DNA from: Periplaneta americana
Lineage: Eukaryota > Arthropoda > Insecta > Blattodea > Blattidae
Assembly: GCF_040183065.1 (NCBI RefSeq)
Contig: NC_091122.1
Coordinates: forward strand, 158,683,455 to 158,747,454
DNA length: 64,000 bases
Direction: 5' to 3'
The translations under genes were made by a program, and so were the position numbers. Under the pieces are notes generated by a model. That model was not told the DNA's origin. It did not search any database and saw nothing but the letters and a program-made list of their open reading frames with translations. Shown piece by piece: positions 2,876 to 61,085 of the stretch (the stretch's first letter is position 1; each line of letters begins with the position of its first letter).

Positions 2876-4468
<1,593 letters not shown>

Positions 4469-12564: not shown

Positions 12565-13810
12565 TACTTACTTATTGGCTTTTAAGGAACCCGGAGGTTC
12601 ATTGCCGCCCTCACATAAGCCCGCCATTGGTCCCTATCCTGAACAAGATTAATCCAGTCTCTATCATCATATCCCACCTCCCTCAAATCCATTTTAATAT
12701 TATCCTCCCATCTACGTCTCGGCCTCCCCAAAGGTATTTCCCCTCTGGCCTCCCAACTAACACTCTGTATGCATTTCTGGATTCGCCTATACGTGCTACA
12801 TGCCCTGCCCATCTCAAACGTCTGGATTTAATGTTCCTAATTATGTCAGGTGAAGGATGCAATGCGTGCAGCTCTGCGTTGTGTAACTTTCTCCATTCTC
12901 CTGGAACTTCATCCCTCTTAGCCCCAAATATTTTCCTAAGAACCTTATTCTCAAAAACCCTCAATCTCTGTTCCTCTCTCAAAGTGAGAGTCCAAGTTTC
13001 ACAGTCATACAGAACAACCGGTAATATAACTGTTTTATAAATTCTGACTTTCAGATTTTTTGACAGAAGACTAGATGACAAAAGCTTCTCGACTGAATAA
13101 TAACATGCATTTCCCATATTTATTCTGCGTTTAATTTCCTCCCGAGTGTCATTTATATTTGTTACTGTTGCTCCAAGATATTTGAATTTTTCCACCTCTT
13201 CGAAGGATGAATCTCCAACTCTTATAGTTCCATTTCGTACAATATTCTGGTCACGAGACATAATCATATACTTAGTCGTTTCGGGATTTACTTCCAACCC
13301 TATCGCTTTACTTGCTTCAACTAGAATTTCCGCGTTTTCCCTAATCGCTTGTGGATTTTCTCCTAACATATTCACGTCATCCGCATAGACAAGAAGCTGA
13401 TGTAACCCATTCAACTCCAAACCCTGTCTATTATCCTGAACTTTCCTAATGGCATATTCTAGAGCGAAGTTAAAAAGTAAAGGTGATAGTGCATCTCCCT
13501 GCGTTAACCCGCAGTGAATTGGAAAAGCATCAGACAGAAGCTGGCCTATACGGACTCTGCTGTAAGTTTCACTAAGACACATTTTAATTAATCGAACTAG
13601 TTTCTTGGGAATACCAAATTCAATAAGAATATTATATAAAACTTCTCTCCTAACCGAGTCATACGCCTTTTTGAAATCTATGAATAACTGATTTACTGTA
13701 CCCTTATACTCCCATTTTTTCTCCAATATCTGTCGAATACAAAAAATCTGATCAATAGTCGATCTATTACGCCTAAAACCACACTGATGATCCCCAATAA
13801 GTTCATCTTC
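12565..13810 (-). mobile_element. RTE-type LINE, 5'-truncated (copy 1)
   Basis: On the minus strand it encodes reverse transcriptase: [11 protein letters not shown] (catalytic Asp), [18 protein letters not shown], and YADDVN (catalytic Asp pair). A C-terminal tail follows ([33 protein letters not shown]). A frameshift near 12735 splits the last about 50 codons into another frame. The 3' end at 12565 carries the family's short AGTA-type tail. The target duplication is CTACATCCCACAG / CTACATCACACAG (12552-12564, 13811-13823). Confidence 0.93.
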
Positions 13811-16832: not shown

Positions 16833-17373
16833 CCATTAATTAATTATAAGTCTAGCTGGGTATTTACCAAGATTTACAATCTGCCTTAAAACTTCAGCCA
16901 CAGTTTTCACATTCGTATTTATCACACAAAACACCGTGACGAAACAAAAACTCACGCAACTCTTCATCTTTACATAACCATATAAATTCCGTAGCACGTA
17001 TACTGAAATCTCCACATAAACTACCATCAGAAAAATATGAAGAAAACCATGATTCCAGCATAGATGTTCAAAACTCCCTAATATTGTGCTAGTATGTAGT
17101 TTACAAGTCAGTTAGTTACTAGTTCTTAGATTGTAGTATAGACCTGGGTCATTCCACGCAAAAAAGTATGTTTTTGAGCCATTATGTCTCAAAAGTTAAA
17201 AATATTGCAGTAGGTTATTTTGTATGTTCTGAATATGAATTTCAAGCAATACTATATATCTTTCATAGTTGGCAGCAATCTGCATTTAAAATATTGGTTT
17301 ATCAAAGAACACGGTTTCATTCATTGAAGTTTTCTTACTATGTAAAAGGAAATGAAAAAGTAATTAATTATTG
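16833..17373. other. No gene recognised
   Basis: AT-rich; the frames present have no recognisable motif. Confidence 0.5.
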
Positions 17374-18710
17374 GGGATCATCAGTGTGGTTTTAGGCGTA
17401 ATAGATCGACTATTGATCAGATTTTTTGTATTCGACAGATATTGGAGAAAAAATGGGAGTATAAGGGCACAGTACATCAGTTTTTCATAGATTTCAAAAA
17501 GGCGTATGACTCTGTTAAGAGAGAAGTTTTATATAATATTCTTATTGAATTTGGTATTCCCAAGAAACTAGTTCGAATAATTAAAATGTGTCTTAGTGAA
17601 ACTTACAGCAGAGTCCGTACAGGCCAGCTTCTGTCTAATGCTTTTCCAATTCACTGCGGGCTAAAGCAGGGAGATGCACTATCACCTTTACTTTTTAACT
17701 TCGCTCTAGAATATGCCATTAGGAAAGTTCAGGATAGCACAGAGGGTTTGGAATTGAATGGGTTACATCAGCTTCTTGTCTATGCGGATGACGTGAATAT
17801 GCTAGGAGAAAATCCACAAACGATTAGGGAAAACGCGGAAATTCTAGTTGAAGCAAGTAAAGCGATAGTGTTGGAAGTAAATCCCGAAAAGACGAAGTAT
17901 ATGATTATGTCTCGTGACCAGAATATTGTACGAAATGGAACTATAAAAATTGGAGATTTATCTTTCGAAGAGGTGGAAAAATTCAAATATCTTGGAGCAA
18001 CAGTAACAAATATAAATGACACTCGGGAGGAAATTAAACGCAGAATAAATGTGGGAAATGCCTGTTATTATTCGGTTGAGAAGCTTTTGTCATCTAGTTT
18101 TCTGTCAAAAAATCTGAAAGTTAGAATTTATAAAACAGTTATATTACCGGTTGTTCTGTATGGTTGTGAAACTTGGACTCTCACTTTGAGAGAGGAACAG
18201 AGATTAAGGGTGTTTGAGAATAAGATTTTTAGGAAATTATTTGGGGCTAAGAGGGATGAAGTTCCAGGAGAATGGAGAAAGTTACACAACGCAGAGCTAC
18301 ACGCATTGTATTCTTCACCTGACATAATTAGGAACATTAAATCCAGACGTTTGAGATGGGCAGGACATGTAGCACGTATGGGCGAATCCAGAAATACATA
18401 TAGAGTGTTAGTTGGGAGACCGGAGAGAAAAAGACCTTTGGGGAGGCCGAGACGTAGGTGGGAAGATAATATTAAAATGGATTTGAGGGAGGTGGGATAT
18501 GATGGTAGAGACTGGATTAATCTTGCTCAGGATAGGGACCAATGGCGGGCTTATGTGAGAGCGGCAATGAACCTTCGGGTTCCTTAAAAGCCATTTGTAA
18601 GTAAGGTTATATGGTATACAAAATAAGAGATTATTATATTGTATTTCAATCATGTATTTGATGATGTTGTTCGGTACGACGGGTTCCTTAAAAGCCAGTA
18701 AGTAAGTAAT
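17374..18710 (+). mobile_element. RTE-type LINE, 5'-truncated (copy 2, longest open frame)
   Basis: The frame is open from [16 protein letters not shown] at 17376 to the stop at 18585-18587, over 400 codons, with no ATG needed. Motifs: [74 protein letters not shown]. This is the best-preserved copy here, but it lacks the endonuclease and the RT start. 'gggttccttaaaagcc' occurs twice (18583, 18683), giving a near-100-bp duplication or extra 3' tail before the AGTA tract. AAGTAATT flanks both sides, a possible short target duplication. Confidence 0.92.
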
Positions 18711-20713: not shown

Positions 20714-21639
20714 GTTGTTTCCAGGGGCGGCTTTTGGGGTAGTGCCAGTGTGCCATGGCACCACCAATGAAAGAAAAAAAAAATAATATCCTAAAAAGCA
20801 GTTGTAATAGTTTATTTCTACACATTTTATTCGTATTTCATTTGAACGCGCGCGCGCACAGATCCGGACGCACTCTTGCAGCGTTTTTCCGAACGTTGGA
20901 GCCAATTCGCTATGGCACTGCCTACGTTCATATAACACTGTACAAAAGGCTACTGATTCTAGTTTATATGCGTTTCTTATGGCAGACTTTGAGCCGAATT
21001 CAATTTGACTCAGTAGTTAATATTCCGCCCGCTAGAGCACAGTAATACAGAAATTTCGCTAGATAGCAGGGTTGTTGGAGACGTTAGGAAGGGAACCATC
21101 AACCGCAGACTTGCACGAAAACACAAGTTAAAGTTCCGCGCCAAATGTTAATGTAATGTTGCCAATTCAAAACTAATGCACATAACTTGGATTTGAATGT
21201 GTAAATTATTATTCATTTAACTATATTGAATACAGAGATAGTCATGGTTCTTTTTATAAAAATAAATATTTTTTCATATTATGTAAAACTGTTTGTTAAT
21301 GTTGTGTAATATTTGTTTTATTTTGCGGCAACTAAATATCGCTACACTGTTGCTATAGTATTGATGCTTTTGTTAACGATACATGAGATTTGTGCAGGAC
21401 ATGAACATGTGTTATTTACGTCGGTGCACAGTGTGTAATTTAGCGAGTCTAGCCGGCCAAAAATCATTTCTCGAAAACTAGTCGCTCAATTTTCATAACA
21501 TTTGGTATGTAACTTCAATTATTGAAGTAGATAAGTTTTTAATAATGAAAATGAAAATAACAACTATTTTTACTGAAAATAAAATTAGTAATATTGTAAA
21601 AAAAATCGATTTCAGTGAAAAAATAAATTAATGTTCATA

Positions 21640-22080
21640 ATGTGGAATGCACTTAAAATTGAAAGCGTAAGACGAAGAAATATTGCTACATATCTTATTC
21701 GTTCAGACGTCAGATGCATCCCCATCAGAATCTGTATCCACACTGTTGGTCTCTCCTTCGGCAGCACCGAGTAATAGAGGCTCGGAGAGAACTGCAGCAC
21801 TACTATTAAAATCGACAGCGATTTCCTCTTCTTAATTTCTTTAAGCTGATGATGTAAGTGTCCAAAGAAATAAATAGCCTCAGTAAAAGATCGGTATTTG
21901 TGTCTTTCTTGATGTTTTTCTCGCGAAGACTTCTCTGAAAAGTCTAATATTGTATTCTTTCCTCGTTTCCTGGGCCTCATCAGATAGTTTGCCAGTAGGT
22001 GTAATAGTGTCCTGTGACCTTCTATCCATGAGCCAAGAGTTTGTAAAGGGTTGTAGGCATATAATACTATTTGTGCAAGC
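21640..22080 (-). pseudogene. Transib-like transposase, C-terminal remnants
   Basis: Across frames the minus strand gives PLQTLGSWIEG, GKLSDEAQETRKEYN, KTSRKTQIPIF and a final acidic stretch (DTDSDGDAS). The LS.EAQE.RNK...RKTSR pattern is one I recall from Transib C-termini. Several frame changes occur, and no RAG1-like catalytic motif can be read confidently. Confidence 0.5.
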
Positions 22081-22488
22081 ATAAATATAATTCCCTTGTC
22101 TCCCTTGCATACATGTCAAGTGCCCGTTCATCAGTATAGCAAAACCTCAAGAAAAGGTTTCTAATATTGTATGTGTAAACGACTTATTAATTTTCCATCT
22201 ATTCCCGTAATATATGCGAAAGTGGAAACCTCCCTGAAAAATCTTCTTGCGGTATTTGCATCATTTTTATTGCGAGTGCTTTGTTTTATCACGCCAACAA
22301 GTAGTCCCCTTTCCTGCCTGAACCTATCCTATCTTCAGTGTTTCGCAATAAATAAAACGAAGGATCTAAATTAACTGTTACAAGAATTTGCATTTCCCTT
22401 AATTCTTTATATTGATTAGAGGTCAACTGTAAATCAGTAATCAAAGCGAGAACCTTATTAGGTGACAATTGTTGGTCGTTCCTGCAAA

Positions 22489-22662
22489 TATATTTTGATG
22501 TACCGAAGTGCATATGATATTTCCATGCAGATATTCTGCGTCATCACATGATGAAAGAGTAATGGAACGGAGAAAAATTCTCTCCGGCACGTAGAGCTGA
22601 AAACCCGGGTTCAAATCCCGGCGCCGGAGAGAATTTTTCTCCGTTCCATCACTCTTTCATCA
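22489..22662. mobile_element. SINE with inverted 5' part (palindromic insertion)
   Basis: The flanking duplication CGTTCCTGCAAA is perfect (22477-22488, 22663-22674). The left part is a SINE body in minus orientation. The right part (from 22589) is a tRNA T-arm (CCGGGTTCAAATCCCGG) followed by the same body sequence in plus orientation. The arms 22549-22588 and 22623-22662 are inverse copies with one mismatch. A 34-nt segment with the B box forms the loop. The structure fits a 5' inversion during LINE-driven insertion (twin priming). Confidence 0.8.
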
Positions 22663-22675
22663 CGTTCCTGCAAAA

Positions 22676-23212
22676 TCAATTTTCACGTTTTTTTTCTCTC
22701 AATTTTGTCGCACGTTGAAGTGTTGCAAGTAAAAGCTCTCCTACAATATTGGCCGCATCTCTTTTCGTAGAAGTTCTGAAACTCATATGGGCAGCAGAAA
22801 GCTTTTCTTCTGGTGATCTTTCTTTAAAAAGGGGACTAAATTTTTTCCGTTTTGATCTTTCGCTCAGTTCTCCGAAAAGTTTACGTGGACGTCCCCGAAT
22901 GCTTGTACGGGCAGACTCAAATTGGAATTGTTTTGTAGTAGATTTCAAAGTATTATATATTTTATTCTCAGACTTTGCATCTTGGTTCAAACATAGCACA
23001 TTATATTTTAAGAAAATTTTCTCATTTATGCTGTATTTTTTCCACCGTAATCGAATTTTCGAGCATAGAAATTTAATTAATTTTTTTATTGACTGTAAAA
23101 TGTCTTCAGAGTAATCTTTGAGACCAAAATGTTCAATTATATTTGAGAATTTCACTTTTTTCTCGCTCTTGTTCCATACCTGGAAAACAGCTCTCCTGAT
23201 TACGGAGCGCAT
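22676..23212 (-). pseudogene. Transib-like transposase, N-terminal part
   Basis: 178 codons starting MRSVIRRAVFQVW. Residues 105-123 (RGRPRKLFGELSERSKRKK) and the following EKLSAAHMSFRTSTKRDAA form a segment I recall from Transib-type insect proteins. It is upstream of the RAG1-like catalytic core, which is not visible here. The frame ends where the SINE at 22489-22662 inserted. The next piece (LSPNKVLALITDLQ) resumes on the far side at about 22470, and C-terminal pieces lie at 21640-22080. Family assignment rests mainly on the termini. Confidence 0.6.
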
Positions 23213-24143
23213 GGTGTCTGAAAATAATTAATAGTTTTTCTGTCTGCATCTGGTTGCAGAAAAAAATCACGACGTCTTGCTCAGAAAAGCATAATGAATA
23301 TGTCCACAAAATTTTATCGAGGTGATAGAGGGCTACACCTTTTAAAATTCAACTCAAAGTAATGTAATAAGATAGAACTTTGACTCTCTGCACATGTTCA
23401 TTCAGACACTTATTCTAGACAATAAGATAATAATTTGTAGCAAAAGAATCAGTTTATTTGTAAGTATATACCTCCTTATAATATATCCACACTGTATATT
23501 AAAGAAAAATATTATATTAACTTCCTCACTTTGCATCATTCAAATACAAACTGCACGCCCGCCTCTGCAGCGTAAATGATCTTATCGGAGACATGCAACT
23601 TTCGCTCTGTTGTGAGGGCCCCTTAACAGATGTAAGCATCTGTCTACACTTGGATAGTATACTTTGGAGTGTTATAAACACGCCTATATAAAAATTTAGA
23701 ATTAAAGATGGGGTGTGAAAATTGATTTTTGGCCGGCTAGCTGCTTGAAATTACACACTGTGCACTGCCTTGAATTCATCGGCCTGTTAAATAAAGTGCA
23801 AACGTGTTTGTTTATCATCTATATCACTGTTTATCTCGTGTATTTTTGCCAGTAATTTTACTAGTTATAAAAGTTATTCGTATTTGACTAACAATACTGT
23901 GAAAGTTTTGATTATCTGTATCTGTAAATTTCGTTATTAGTTTCGGAAATGTTATTGTAACTGTTACTAGATGCATTATTAACTGCACACCTGGTAAAAT
24001 AGCTGGTTTAATTAATGTGTTTTATTTAACATAATGCAAACGTGAGCTGCGATTATCAATTTCACTAGGGTAATTTGCGTACAACCTTTTTTCATTTTTG
24101 GCACCCCCACCAGCATGCCACACTGGCCGCCACTGGTTATTTC

Positions 24144-28878: not shown

Positions 28879-30600
28879 ATGTATTCAATACCAGAGAAAG
28901 TGGCCATAGTGGAGGCATACAAACATACCAACTCTTACTTACTTACTGGCTTTTAAGGAACCCGGAGGTTCATTGCCGCCCTCACATAAGCCCGCCATTG
29001 GTCCCTATCCTGAGCAAGATTAATCCAGTCTCTACCATCATATCCCACCTCCCTCAAATACATTTTAATATTATTCTTCCATCTACGTCTCGGCCTCCCC
29101 AGAGGTCTTTTCCCCTCAGGCCTCCCAACTAACACTCTATATGCATTTCTGGAATCGCCCATACGTGCTACATGCCCTGCCCATCTCAAACGTCTGGATT
29201 TAATGTTCCTAATTATGTCAGGTGAAGGACGCAATGCGTGCAGCTCTGCGTTGTGTAACTTTCTCCATTCTCCTGGAACTTCATCCCTCTTAGCCCCAAA
29301 TATTTTCCTAAGAACCTTATTCTCAAAAACCCTCAATCTCTGTTCCTCTCTCAAAGTGAGAGTCCAAGTTTCACAGCCATACAGAACAACCGGTAATATA
29401 ACTGTTTTATAAATTCTGACTTTCAGATTTTTTGACAGAAGACTAGATGACAAAAGCTTCTCAACCGAATAATAAAAGGCATTTTCCATATTTATTCTGC
29501 GTTTAATTTCCTCCTGAGTGTCATTTATATTTGTTACTGTTTCTCCAAGATATTTGAATTTTTCCACCTCTTCGAAGGATAAATCTCCAATTTTTATAGT
29601 TCCATTTCGTACAATATTCTGATCACGTGACATAATCATATACTTAGTCTTTTCGGAATTTACTTTCAACCCTTCTTTTCGGAATTTACTTTCAACCCTA
29701 TCTCTTTACTTGCTTCAAGTAGAATTTCCGCGTTTTCCCTAATCGTTTGTGGATTTTCTCCTAACATACTCACATCATCCGCATAAACAAAAAGCTCTAC
29801 CAAGAAAATATGGAAATTATTTAGAGACAAGTTTTCGCATAGTCCAATAACAGCAAAAAGCAGCATTCAACACTTGGTGAAGAAATGGAGCATAACTGTA
29901 TCCATTGTAAATGCACCAAAGAACAGAGAGTCTATCACCAAACTGCATCAACAGGTTCACATGAGAAGAACGTGTAGGCATACTGTATGTTGAAGGCATT
30001 GAAATTCAAACCATACCAAGTGACAGCTATGCAACAATTGAAAGAGACGGACAGGGATGAACATTTGAAATTCTGCCACTGGTTGTTGAATATGGTTGAA
30101 GAGGGATACTTGGACCCATTAATGTTTATTATGACTCACGAGGTATGGTTTCAACTATCGGGTTATATAAATCCCAGAACAGCAGGTATTGGGCGACTGA
30201 AGATCCTCATAAAGTGCACGGGCAACTTCTACATGACAAAAAAATCAGTGTGTGGTGTGCTGAGTCTGTCACATGCATTATCAGCCCAAAATTGAACACG
30301 GATGTCTACTTAGCCTTGCTGGAGGAAATTTATTCCCAACTGGCAGAAGGGCAGCATCAACACTGCTTCTTGTTTACTACTGAGAAGACAATGAGCAAAG
30401 GCTTGTGGCCATCACGGTCACCAGACTTATCGATATGTGACTTTTATTTGCAGATACTTGAAGGGAAGAGTGTACGAACAAAATCCCCATAAGGAACTCA
30501 ACAATAACATTAGAAATAGCATCTGCAATTCACCATTGTGGAATTCACAAGTGTAGACATGAACCTGTTACGATGCACACTGAAGTGTTTGGATGATGGT
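28879..30600 (+). pseudogene. Mariner-like (DUF4817) transposase split by an RTE LINE
   Basis: The ATG at 28879 starts MYSIPEKVAIVEAYKHTNS, the DUF4817 HTH start. The minus-strand RTE follows (28936-29794). The frame then resumes TKKIWKLFRDKFSHSPITAK, SSIQHLVKKWSITVS, and later TDRDEHLKFCHWLLNMVEEG and VWFQLSGYINPRT. It ends with PSRSPDLSICDFYLQ. Stops and frame changes are frequent. The catalytic motif that normally reads TDEAWFHLSGY is THEVWFQLSGY here. Confidence 0.82.
28936..29794 (-). mobile_element. RTE-type LINE, 5'-truncated (copy 3)
   Basis: The 3' tail is at 28936 (tacttacttactggcttt on +). The frame runs 29669-28953 and holds the RT C-terminus ([44 protein letters not shown]). The catalytic YADDVS is preserved upstream in another frame. 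A tandem duplication at about 29645-29698 ('ttttcggaatttactttc' twice) shifts the frame. CTCT flanks both ends. It interrupts the mariner-like gene. Confidence 0.92.
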
Positions 30601-59503: not shown

Positions 59504-60813
59504 CTTACTTACTTACTGGCTTTTAAGGAACCCGGAGGTTCATTGCCGCCCTCACATAAGCCCGCCATAGGTCTCTATCCTGAGCAAGATTAATCCAGTC
59601 TCTACCATCATATCCCACCTCCCTCAAATCCATTTTAATATAATCTTCCCACCTACGTCTCGGCCTCCCAAAGGTCTTTTTCCCTCCGGCCTCCCAACAC
59701 TCTATATGCATTTCTGGATTCGCCCATACGTGCTACATGTCCTGCCCATCTCAAACGTCTTGATTTAATGTTCCTAATTATGTCAGGTGAAGAATACAAT
59801 GCGTGCAGTTCTGTGTTGTGTAACTTTCTCCATTCTCCTGTAACTTCATCCCTCTTGGCCTCAAAATATTTTCCTGAGAACCTTATTCTCAAACACTCTT
59901 AACCTATGTTCCTCTCTCAAAGTGAGAGTCCAAGTTTCACAACCATAAAGAACAACCGGTAATATAACTGTTTTATAAATTCTAACTTTCAGATTTTTTG
60001 ACAGCAGATTGGATGGTAAAAGCTTCTCAACCGAATAATAACAGGCATTTCCCATATTTATTCTGCGTTTAATTTCCTTCCGAGTGTCATTTATGTTTGT
60101 TACTGTTGCTCCAAGATATTTGAATTTTTCCACCTCTTCGAAAGATAAATCTCCAATATTTACACTTCCATTTCGTACAATATTCTGGTCATGAGACATA
60201 ATCATATGCTTAGTCTTTTCGGGATTTACTTCCAACCCTATCGCTTTACTTGCTTCAACTAGAATTTTCGCGTTTTCCCTAATCGTTTGTAGATTTTCTC
60301 CTAGCATATTCACGTCATCCGCATAGACAAGAAGCTGATGTAACCCATTCAACTCCAAACCCTGTCTATTATCCTGAACTTTCCTAATGGCATATTCTAG
60401 AGCGAAGTTAAAAAGTAAAGGTGATAGTGCATCTCCCTGCTTTAGCCCGCAGTGTATTGGAAAAGCATCAGATAGAAACTGACCTATACGGACTCTGCTG
60501 TAAGTTTCACTAAGACACATTTTAATTAATCGAACTAGTTTCTTGGGAATACCAAATTCAATAAGAATATTATATAAAACTTCTCTCTTAACCGAGTCAT
60601 ACGCCTTTCTGAAATCTATGAATAACTGATGTACTGTACCCTTATACTCCAATTTTTTCTCCAATATCTGTCGAATACAAAAAATCTGATCAATAGTCGA
60701 TCTATTACGCCTAAAACCACACTGATGATCCCCAATAATTTCATCTACATATGGAGTTAATCTTCTCAAAAGGATATTCAACAAAATTTTGTACAACGTC
60801 AACAAAAGTGACG
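59504..60813 (-). mobile_element. RTE-type LINE, 5'-truncated (copy 7)
   Basis: The minus frame from the 5' truncation at 60813 encodes [69 protein letters not shown] and YADDVN. It is shifted near 59865 and again near 59690 before the C-terminal stop at 59523. The target duplication ATAATGATCTTA is perfect (59492-59503, 60814-60825). It reaches furthest 5' of the seven copies. Confidence 0.95.
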
Positions 60814-61085
60814 ATAATGATCTTAATGATCTTACCATTTTAAAATACCTGTTGTATTTGTTAGTTGGCTGTCATCCTAGTTCAGTGCTGTATCTTCAGA
60901 GATAGCGGGAAAAGGTAGGATTTTACAAATTTAATAACCACAAATAGATCGGAAAATTGTAGATGTAATCAACTCCAGCAACATAGGTACATGAAATTGG
61001 ACAATTCCTCAAATAGATGTGCAAGTTAATAATATTGTAAAATAAAAATACCTCGCATTTTCAGAACTACCATATCATTAATAAC

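Follow-up and report, generated by a model that had tools for sequence, protein, structure and literature searches.

Structure of the element and its ends

The window (the whole stretch of DNA analysed, 64 kb) contained at positions 21427-23762 a transposon-like element with inverted ends. Outside it lay two 5-bp target-site duplication (TSD) copies and inside it, on the minus strand, the remnants of a transposase gene. The features were as follows, with the evidence for each:

21422..21426, no strand: left 5-bp TSD copy, CGGTG (ancestral CGCTG); empty sites L058-L060
21427..21433, plus strand: left heptamer CACAGTG, element terminus; pattern search, flanks of the copies, empty sites
21434..21456, plus strand: left 23-bp spacer; end positions 16-22 unlike the right end
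21457..21465, plus strand: left nonamer-like block CCAAAAATC; pattern search, nonamer comparison
21703..21831, minus strand: what is left of the acidic tail at the C-terminus of the transposase, ending at a stop; direct frame reading, by appearance only
21830..22150, minus strand: C-terminal remnant YYMPTTLYKLLAHG...GKLSDEAQETR...ARKTSRKT in shifted frames; phmmer to 6pqn
22161..22328, minus strand: remnant GLLVGVIKQSTRNKNDANTARRFFREVSTFAYITGID, whose homology to HzTransib starts near chain residue 295; 6pqn alignment
22320..22360, minus strand: internal-deletion junction, HzTransib chain ~51-294 absent; gap in the 6pqn alignment, junction survey
22345..22488, minus strand: remnant CRNDQQLSPNKVLALITDLQLTSNQYKELREMQ, similar to HzTransib chain 8-50; 6pqn alignment, 4.6 bits alone
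22477..22674, no strand: 186-bp nested insertion that has imperfect inverted arms and a GGTTCAAATCC box resembling that of a tRNA; sequence comparison
22676..23227, minus strand: N-terminal remnant of 183 aa with GRPRKLFGELSERSKRKK (NBD-like region); alignment with the genome's other Transibs
23724..23732, minus strand: right nonamer-like block CCAAAAATC; pattern search, nonamer comparison
23733..23755, minus strand: right 23-bp spacer; pattern search
23756..23762, minus strand: right heptamer CACAGTG, element terminus; pattern search, flanks of the copies, empty sites
23763..23767, no strand: right 5-bp TSD copy, CACTG (ancestral CGCTG); empty sites

The window had exactly two occurrences of the pattern CACAGTG-N23-CCAAAAATC, in inverted orientation at 21427-21465 (+) and 23724-23762 (-), and 100 dinucleotide shuffles of the window had none. 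The two 39-bp ends were alike at 33 of 39 positions and all six differences fell within positions 16-22. The heptamer was identical to the RSS consensus heptamer, and CCAAAAATC equalled the RSS nonamer ACAAAAACC (the consensus quoted in an excerpt of PMC8289069) at 7 of 9 positions at a spacer of 23. An earlier note on this DNA had read a V(D)J consensus heptamer, 23 bp and a nonamer-like block at both termini, and this reading was borne out.

Perfect ends, with both conserved blocks and seven free bases between them, numbered 308 in the 3.23-Gb assembly of the same genome and none in the reversed control. Widening the free bases to 3-12 added a single end with a spacer of 21 bp, giving 23-bp spacing in 308 of 309 ends. 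Deviation of the spacer was therefore 1/309 in the ends vs 119/6303 in interior 7-bp windows, a control that left out L026, L036, L040 and L043 and that slippage-prone stretches may inflate. Because only about six deviating ends were expected, this deficit is weak (1 vs ~6 of 309), and spacer rigidity as proof of function was dropped. Block counts for the left end were inflated by shifted ends and were set aside. Right ends were less diverged than the interior (5/780 vs 917/41099, with L026 left out), which is suggestive only.

Transposase remnants and the missing core

Transibs are the transposon kin of RAG1, the enzyme behind the assembly of antibody genes in vertebrates. The minus strand of the element carried pieces of one gene with shifted frames, the longest frame being 183 aa. 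For the protein search these were joined into one read-through in which X stood for stops and for most joins; one frame shift was joined without X. The sole PDB match of the read-through at E up to 1 was HzTransib of Helicoverpa zea (6pqn, E 3.5e-26), with chain residues 295-457 matching best at 88.6 bits and residues 8-50 at 4.6 bits, which is insignificant alone. The region of the latter remnant in the open-frame relatives described below formed one continuous alignment stretch with 6pqn. Searches of the PDB with single fragments produced chance matches only, or a weak match to 6pqn (E 0.055) below two repeat-protein artefacts. The minus-strand stretches that the earlier note had called Transib-like were all present and their assignment is upheld by the HzTransib match; RAG1, also named for comparison, was matched more weakly and through the profile of the relatives (best E 1.1e-08).

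The catalytic residues of HzTransib are given as D126, D225 and E436 in an excerpt of PMC6941560. In the 6pqn chain the aspartates of WGFDG and MIDGK were residues 109 and 208, a constant offset of 17 from the published numbering, and D126 and D225 therefore both lie inside the missing chain 51-294. The DDE triad of the element was thus incomplete, with D126 and D225 deleted (~240 codons) and the position of E436 still occupied by E, namely that of SDEAQE in the C-terminal remnant. The core of the transposase is gone through deletion rather than drift. The acidic tail seen at the C-terminal end was likewise present at the end of the frames of L052-L056.

A Pfam search with 14 frames of the element from both strands returned no family and no kelch, PHD or RAG2-like match. 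The 702-aa Transib protein of L052 had no match either, so Pfam is uninformative on Transib. The element appears to have carried a single transposase gene and no RAG2-like gene; a deleted element could have lost one.

Copies in the genome

A search for copies with the same end positions, as the earlier note had proposed, was productive. The left 134 bp used as a genome query gave 390 candidates, of which 40 were scored, all of them 96-100% identical. The 40-copy set, picked by left-end similarity, consisted of 39 fetched copies and the window copy, and none was removed for the flank and the core and junction counts. The heptamer was exactly CACAGTG in 37/40 left ends and 38/39 right ends. Element size was 2079-2210 bp in 33 of 39 sized copies, and the larger copies L022, L029, L037 and L038 had additional DNA located away from the deletion junction. 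The majority sequence of 21 copies was 2145 bp and already had the in-frame stops, the frameshifts and the core deletion; 20 of the 21 copies were 97.0-98.6% identical to it and the truncated L026 86%.

Within the element, the HzTransib core (170 aa, both aspartates) matched none of the 40 loci; its two matches outside the element were chance ones (E 2.4 and 6.7), and the C-terminal part of HzTransib matched 39/40 loci. The deletion junction was unbroken in 38 of the 40 loci, the exceptions L012 and L026 each having deletions of their own. Inverted pairs numbered 23 among the first 100 of the 308 perfect ends listed; one spanned 979 bp and the other 22 measured 2110-2441 bp, none was longer, and no core-bearing element with the CACAGTGTGTAATTT ends of the window family was found among them. 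No relatives were found in the collections of viral contigs, genome contigs and plasmids.

Four distant relatives (L048-L051) were obtained by protein search. In L049-L051 the core was without a match; two of them, L049 and L051, had the same deletion junction within a frame. L048 had an open C-terminal frame of 210 aa, and its match to HzTransib set in only late in the core. The nonamer-like block at the right end of L048 stood at spacer 17.

The element at 21427-23762 is therefore considered, with a probability of about 95%, to be a copy of a non-autonomous Transib family that was amplified in trans by a transposase whose gene lies elsewhere. Its Transib membership by descent is solid, as are its RSS-like ends. 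Since the core deletion lies within the family, it is non-autonomous, a Transib by descent and not an active one, and the 308 perfect ends point to a ~2.15-kb non-autonomous derivative that was apparently multiplied in trans. We infer this amplification in trans, with the open-frame Transibs of the same genome described below as possible partners.

In one locus (L016, 2430-5106) two Transib families adjoined with one CGCCG between them, in the order CGCCG-A-CGCCG-B-CGCCG. Family B, which abuts the window-family copy there, had no core match and retained GQLSEEAQEARNK.

Target-site duplication and insertion site

The flanks of the window copy, CGGTG and CACTG, were unlike at 2/5 bases. The left flank was repetitive (621 candidates, 40 scored). 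In three copies of this repeat that lack the element (L058-L060) the sequence continued uninterrupted across the site with CGCTG present once, and each window flank differs from CGCTG by one changed base. In inserting, the window copy broke up one CGCTG, with one later change per flank. On account of these empty sites, the positions of the ends and the duplication length of 5 bp hold for the window copy as well. The host repeat enclosing the element occupies 21120-21426 and 23763-23880 of the window, and the three empty sites are copies of it.

Over the 40 copies, the 5-bp flanks were identical in 26, one base off in 10 and two bases off in one (the window copy); L034 was three bases off, L027 four off and L044 was without a right end. 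The 26 identical TSDs had the consensus CGNCG (position 1, C in 24; position 2, G in 19; position 3, mixed; position 4, C in 18; position 5, G in 24) and a G+C content of 79% vs 38% in the flanking DNA, which agrees with the GC-rich 5-bp duplications that had been anticipated for this element. L036 and L037 had common flanks, as did L039, L040 and L043, and each group looks like one site. L027 was flanked by a 6-bp repeat, GCGCCG, in place of 5 bp. Duplications of 5 bp are reported for Transib in excerpts of PMC1852546, PMC4411706 and PMC7204232.

Nested insertion

The nested insertion was present only in the window copy among 21 copies compared, and without it the element measures ~2.15 kb. 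It was bounded by a 12-bp direct duplication of CGTTCCTGCAAA at 22477-22488 and 22663-22674, and its arms were near-palindromic (56 nt, 86%). Scans of the window with ARAGORN and with Rfam at the gathering threshold returned no match, the insertion included. The insertion looks SINE-like.

Open-frame Transibs of the same genome

A search of the same genome with the HzTransib core returned 1721 candidates, of which 150 were scored; many of these had no stops and an open frame of 519 aa was present in at least 16. L052 had a 702-aa frame with no stop in the match, lying between paired ends with the TSD CAACG. Paired ends were also identified in L053, L055 and L056, with TSDs CAGCG, CGACG and CGGCG respectively, and were not found within the stretch fetched for L054 and L057. 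All eight paired ends started with CACAGTG, and in seven of them a nonamer-like block of at least 6/9 was found at spacer 20-24, the right end of L056 having one only at spacer 11.

These four elements resembled the window family in their CACAGTG ends, 5-bp TSDs and GRP motif. However, they were 2.8-3.7 kb in length with long open frames that included the core (two frames in L055 and L056), and the sequence of their ends beyond the heptamer differed from that of the window family, whose exact ends were in none of the open-frame relatives fetched (L052-L057). Long open frames of up to 702 aa in many of the Transib copies suggest recent activity. In L056 (1310-3678), an N-terminal frame of 221 aa and a core frame of 519 aa lay in different frames ~150 bp apart within one element that has a perfect 5-bp duplication; the gap may be either an intron or a break.

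N-terminal NBD-like domain

The GRPRKLF...RSKRKK stretch of the window element aligned with the GRP motifs of Transibs of the same genome. A profile of the relatives matched 6pqn at E 1.2e-181 and matched RAG1 chiefly over its C-terminal part. Over the RAG1 NBD the match was weak (10.1 bits, i-E 1.7, with the zebrafish-type RAG1 3jbw) and collinear from GRP onward, and no match was obtained over the NBD region of the amphioxus BbRAG1L 6b40. Comparison of the NBD-like region with mouse RAG1 389-519 by hhalign was also weak (P 0.0023, probability 12.7%), and the region as a single sequence was weaker still (45/2000 shuffles). The structure predicted for the NBD-like piece was poor, with pLDDT 63 and pTM 0.22, and too uncertain for use in a fold comparison. 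An equivalent NBD with a conserved GRP is already reported in both Transib subgroups (PMC9435367, in excerpt), and the NBD-like domain here is therefore not new.

It is conceivable, though we regard it as rather doubtful, that in the Transib transposases of this genome the core reads the heptamer and the N-terminal GRP domain reads the nonamer-like block 23 bp away. If so, the heptamer-23-nonamer logic of the 23-RSS would work symmetrically without RAG2, and the high-copy deleted family would be a natural substrate library recording mobile end and spacer variants.

Alternative explanations and proposed history

The earlier note had called the element a relic. Its Transib descent stands; what fails is the idea of an autonomous line that decayed independently, for the deletion is shared in 38/40 loci. 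An individually decayed, once autonomous copy would explain the stops and frameshifts in the frame, but the core was found in 0/40 loci, the junction is common and the stops were already in the majority sequence, which leaves this explanation only a very small chance. A smaller chance still attaches to the proposal that the NBD-bearing frame was preserved as a repressor or domesticated protein. That frame, at 180-198 aa, was open in 8 of 21 copies, the window copy being one of these, and nonsense changes made up 7/366 (1.9%) against 4.0% expected. However, over the 35 copies counted (L026, L036, L040, L043 and L044 left out) 271 changes were non-synonymous, 88 synonymous and 7 nonsense, the expected fractions being 0.69, 0.27 and 0.04, so that the ratio of 271:88 was no lower than the expected 0.69:0.27; moreover, indels were present in the frame in 25 of the 35. 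The N-terminal frame appears to evolve with nearly no visible constraint, and the preserved repressor was rejected on this near-neutral substitution pattern.

The consensus heptamer, the nonamer at 7/9 and the spacer of 23 would also suit, in place of a Transib, either a V(D)J-like signal pair or a ProtoRAG-type transposon with RAG1L and RAG2L. Against this, the window protein matched HzTransib at E 3.5e-26 and no RAG1 at E up to 1, the 14 frames had no kelch, PHD or other Pfam match, no RAG1L-RAG2L pair was present, and the spacers are 23/23 with no 12/23 asymmetry as would be looked for in V(D)J; this origin is most improbable. Practically negligible is the probability of another superfamily (hAT, CACTA or PIF/Harbinger) with RSS-like ends by chance. 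The 14 frames without a Pfam match would allow it, as they would a Transib, L052 likewise having none, but it is opposed by the HzTransib homology and by the 5-bp duplications; TSD lengths are 8 bp in hAT, 3 bp in CACTA and 3 bp in Harbinger.

For the preferred reading of a non-autonomous family moved in trans, the following history is proposed. An ancestral Transib would have lost ~240 core codons, those of the first two aspartates of the catalytic triad included, and acquired stops and frameshifts, and the deleted form would have retained both 39-bp RSS-like ends. A transposase from elsewhere would then have multiplied this form in trans by cut-and-paste insertion at CGNCG-like targets, with 5 bp duplicated. 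The window copy itself broke up a CGCTG within another repeat and later took the 186-bp insertion. Of this history, the ends, the duplications, the empty sites, the number of copies, the common deletion and the homology were observed directly. The nonamer-like block would, we infer, be used by the N-terminal NBD-like domain.

Comparison with known systems and neighbouring features

HzTransib, of 3518 bp with the 5-bp TSD GCTCG (PMC1852546), shares with the window family homologous transposase fragments, heptamer-like ends (PMC8289069) and a GC-rich 5-bp duplication. However, as far as the excerpts of these papers extend, it has a full transposase with D126/D225/E436 (PMC6941560) and ends with little or no nonamer similarity (PMC8289069), whereas in the window family neither aspartate remains and a nonamer-like block follows at 23 bp. 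Symmetric RSS-like ends belong to Transib families described in an excerpt of PMC8355894, on Kapitonov and Jurka 2005; these families have a heptamer and an A-rich nonamer-like block, as in the window family, with spacers of 20-22 bp in contrast to exactly 23 in 308/309 ends of the window family, which is also non-autonomous. The window ends resemble the vertebrate 23-RSS in the consensus heptamer, the 23-bp spacer and the nonamer at 7/9, but there is no 12-spacer partner and no RAG2, and transposition takes the place of V(D)J joining. No description of a cockroach Transib family was found in titles and the starts of abstracts, PMC12230796 included, with Repbase and most subscription journals outside this search. 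The cockroach host that the earlier note inferred is plausible from genome size and from how the reverse-transcriptase frames look.

The element is a non-autonomous member of a known superfamily and an ordinary defective passenger. A genome with several long-frame Transib families and 308 perfect non-autonomous ends is clean material for asking whether the nonamer and a spacing of 23 bp count for a RAG1-type transposase that has no RAG2, and equally for the study of 5-bp target choice.

Elsewhere in the window, similar-looking reverse-transcriptase frames were located at 12683-13810 (-), 17364-18587 (+), 28953-29705 (-) and 59861-60871 (-), the first two of which matched PF00078. An open frame of 530 aa at 2876-4468 (+) matched DUF659 (PF04937) and is presumably hAT-like.
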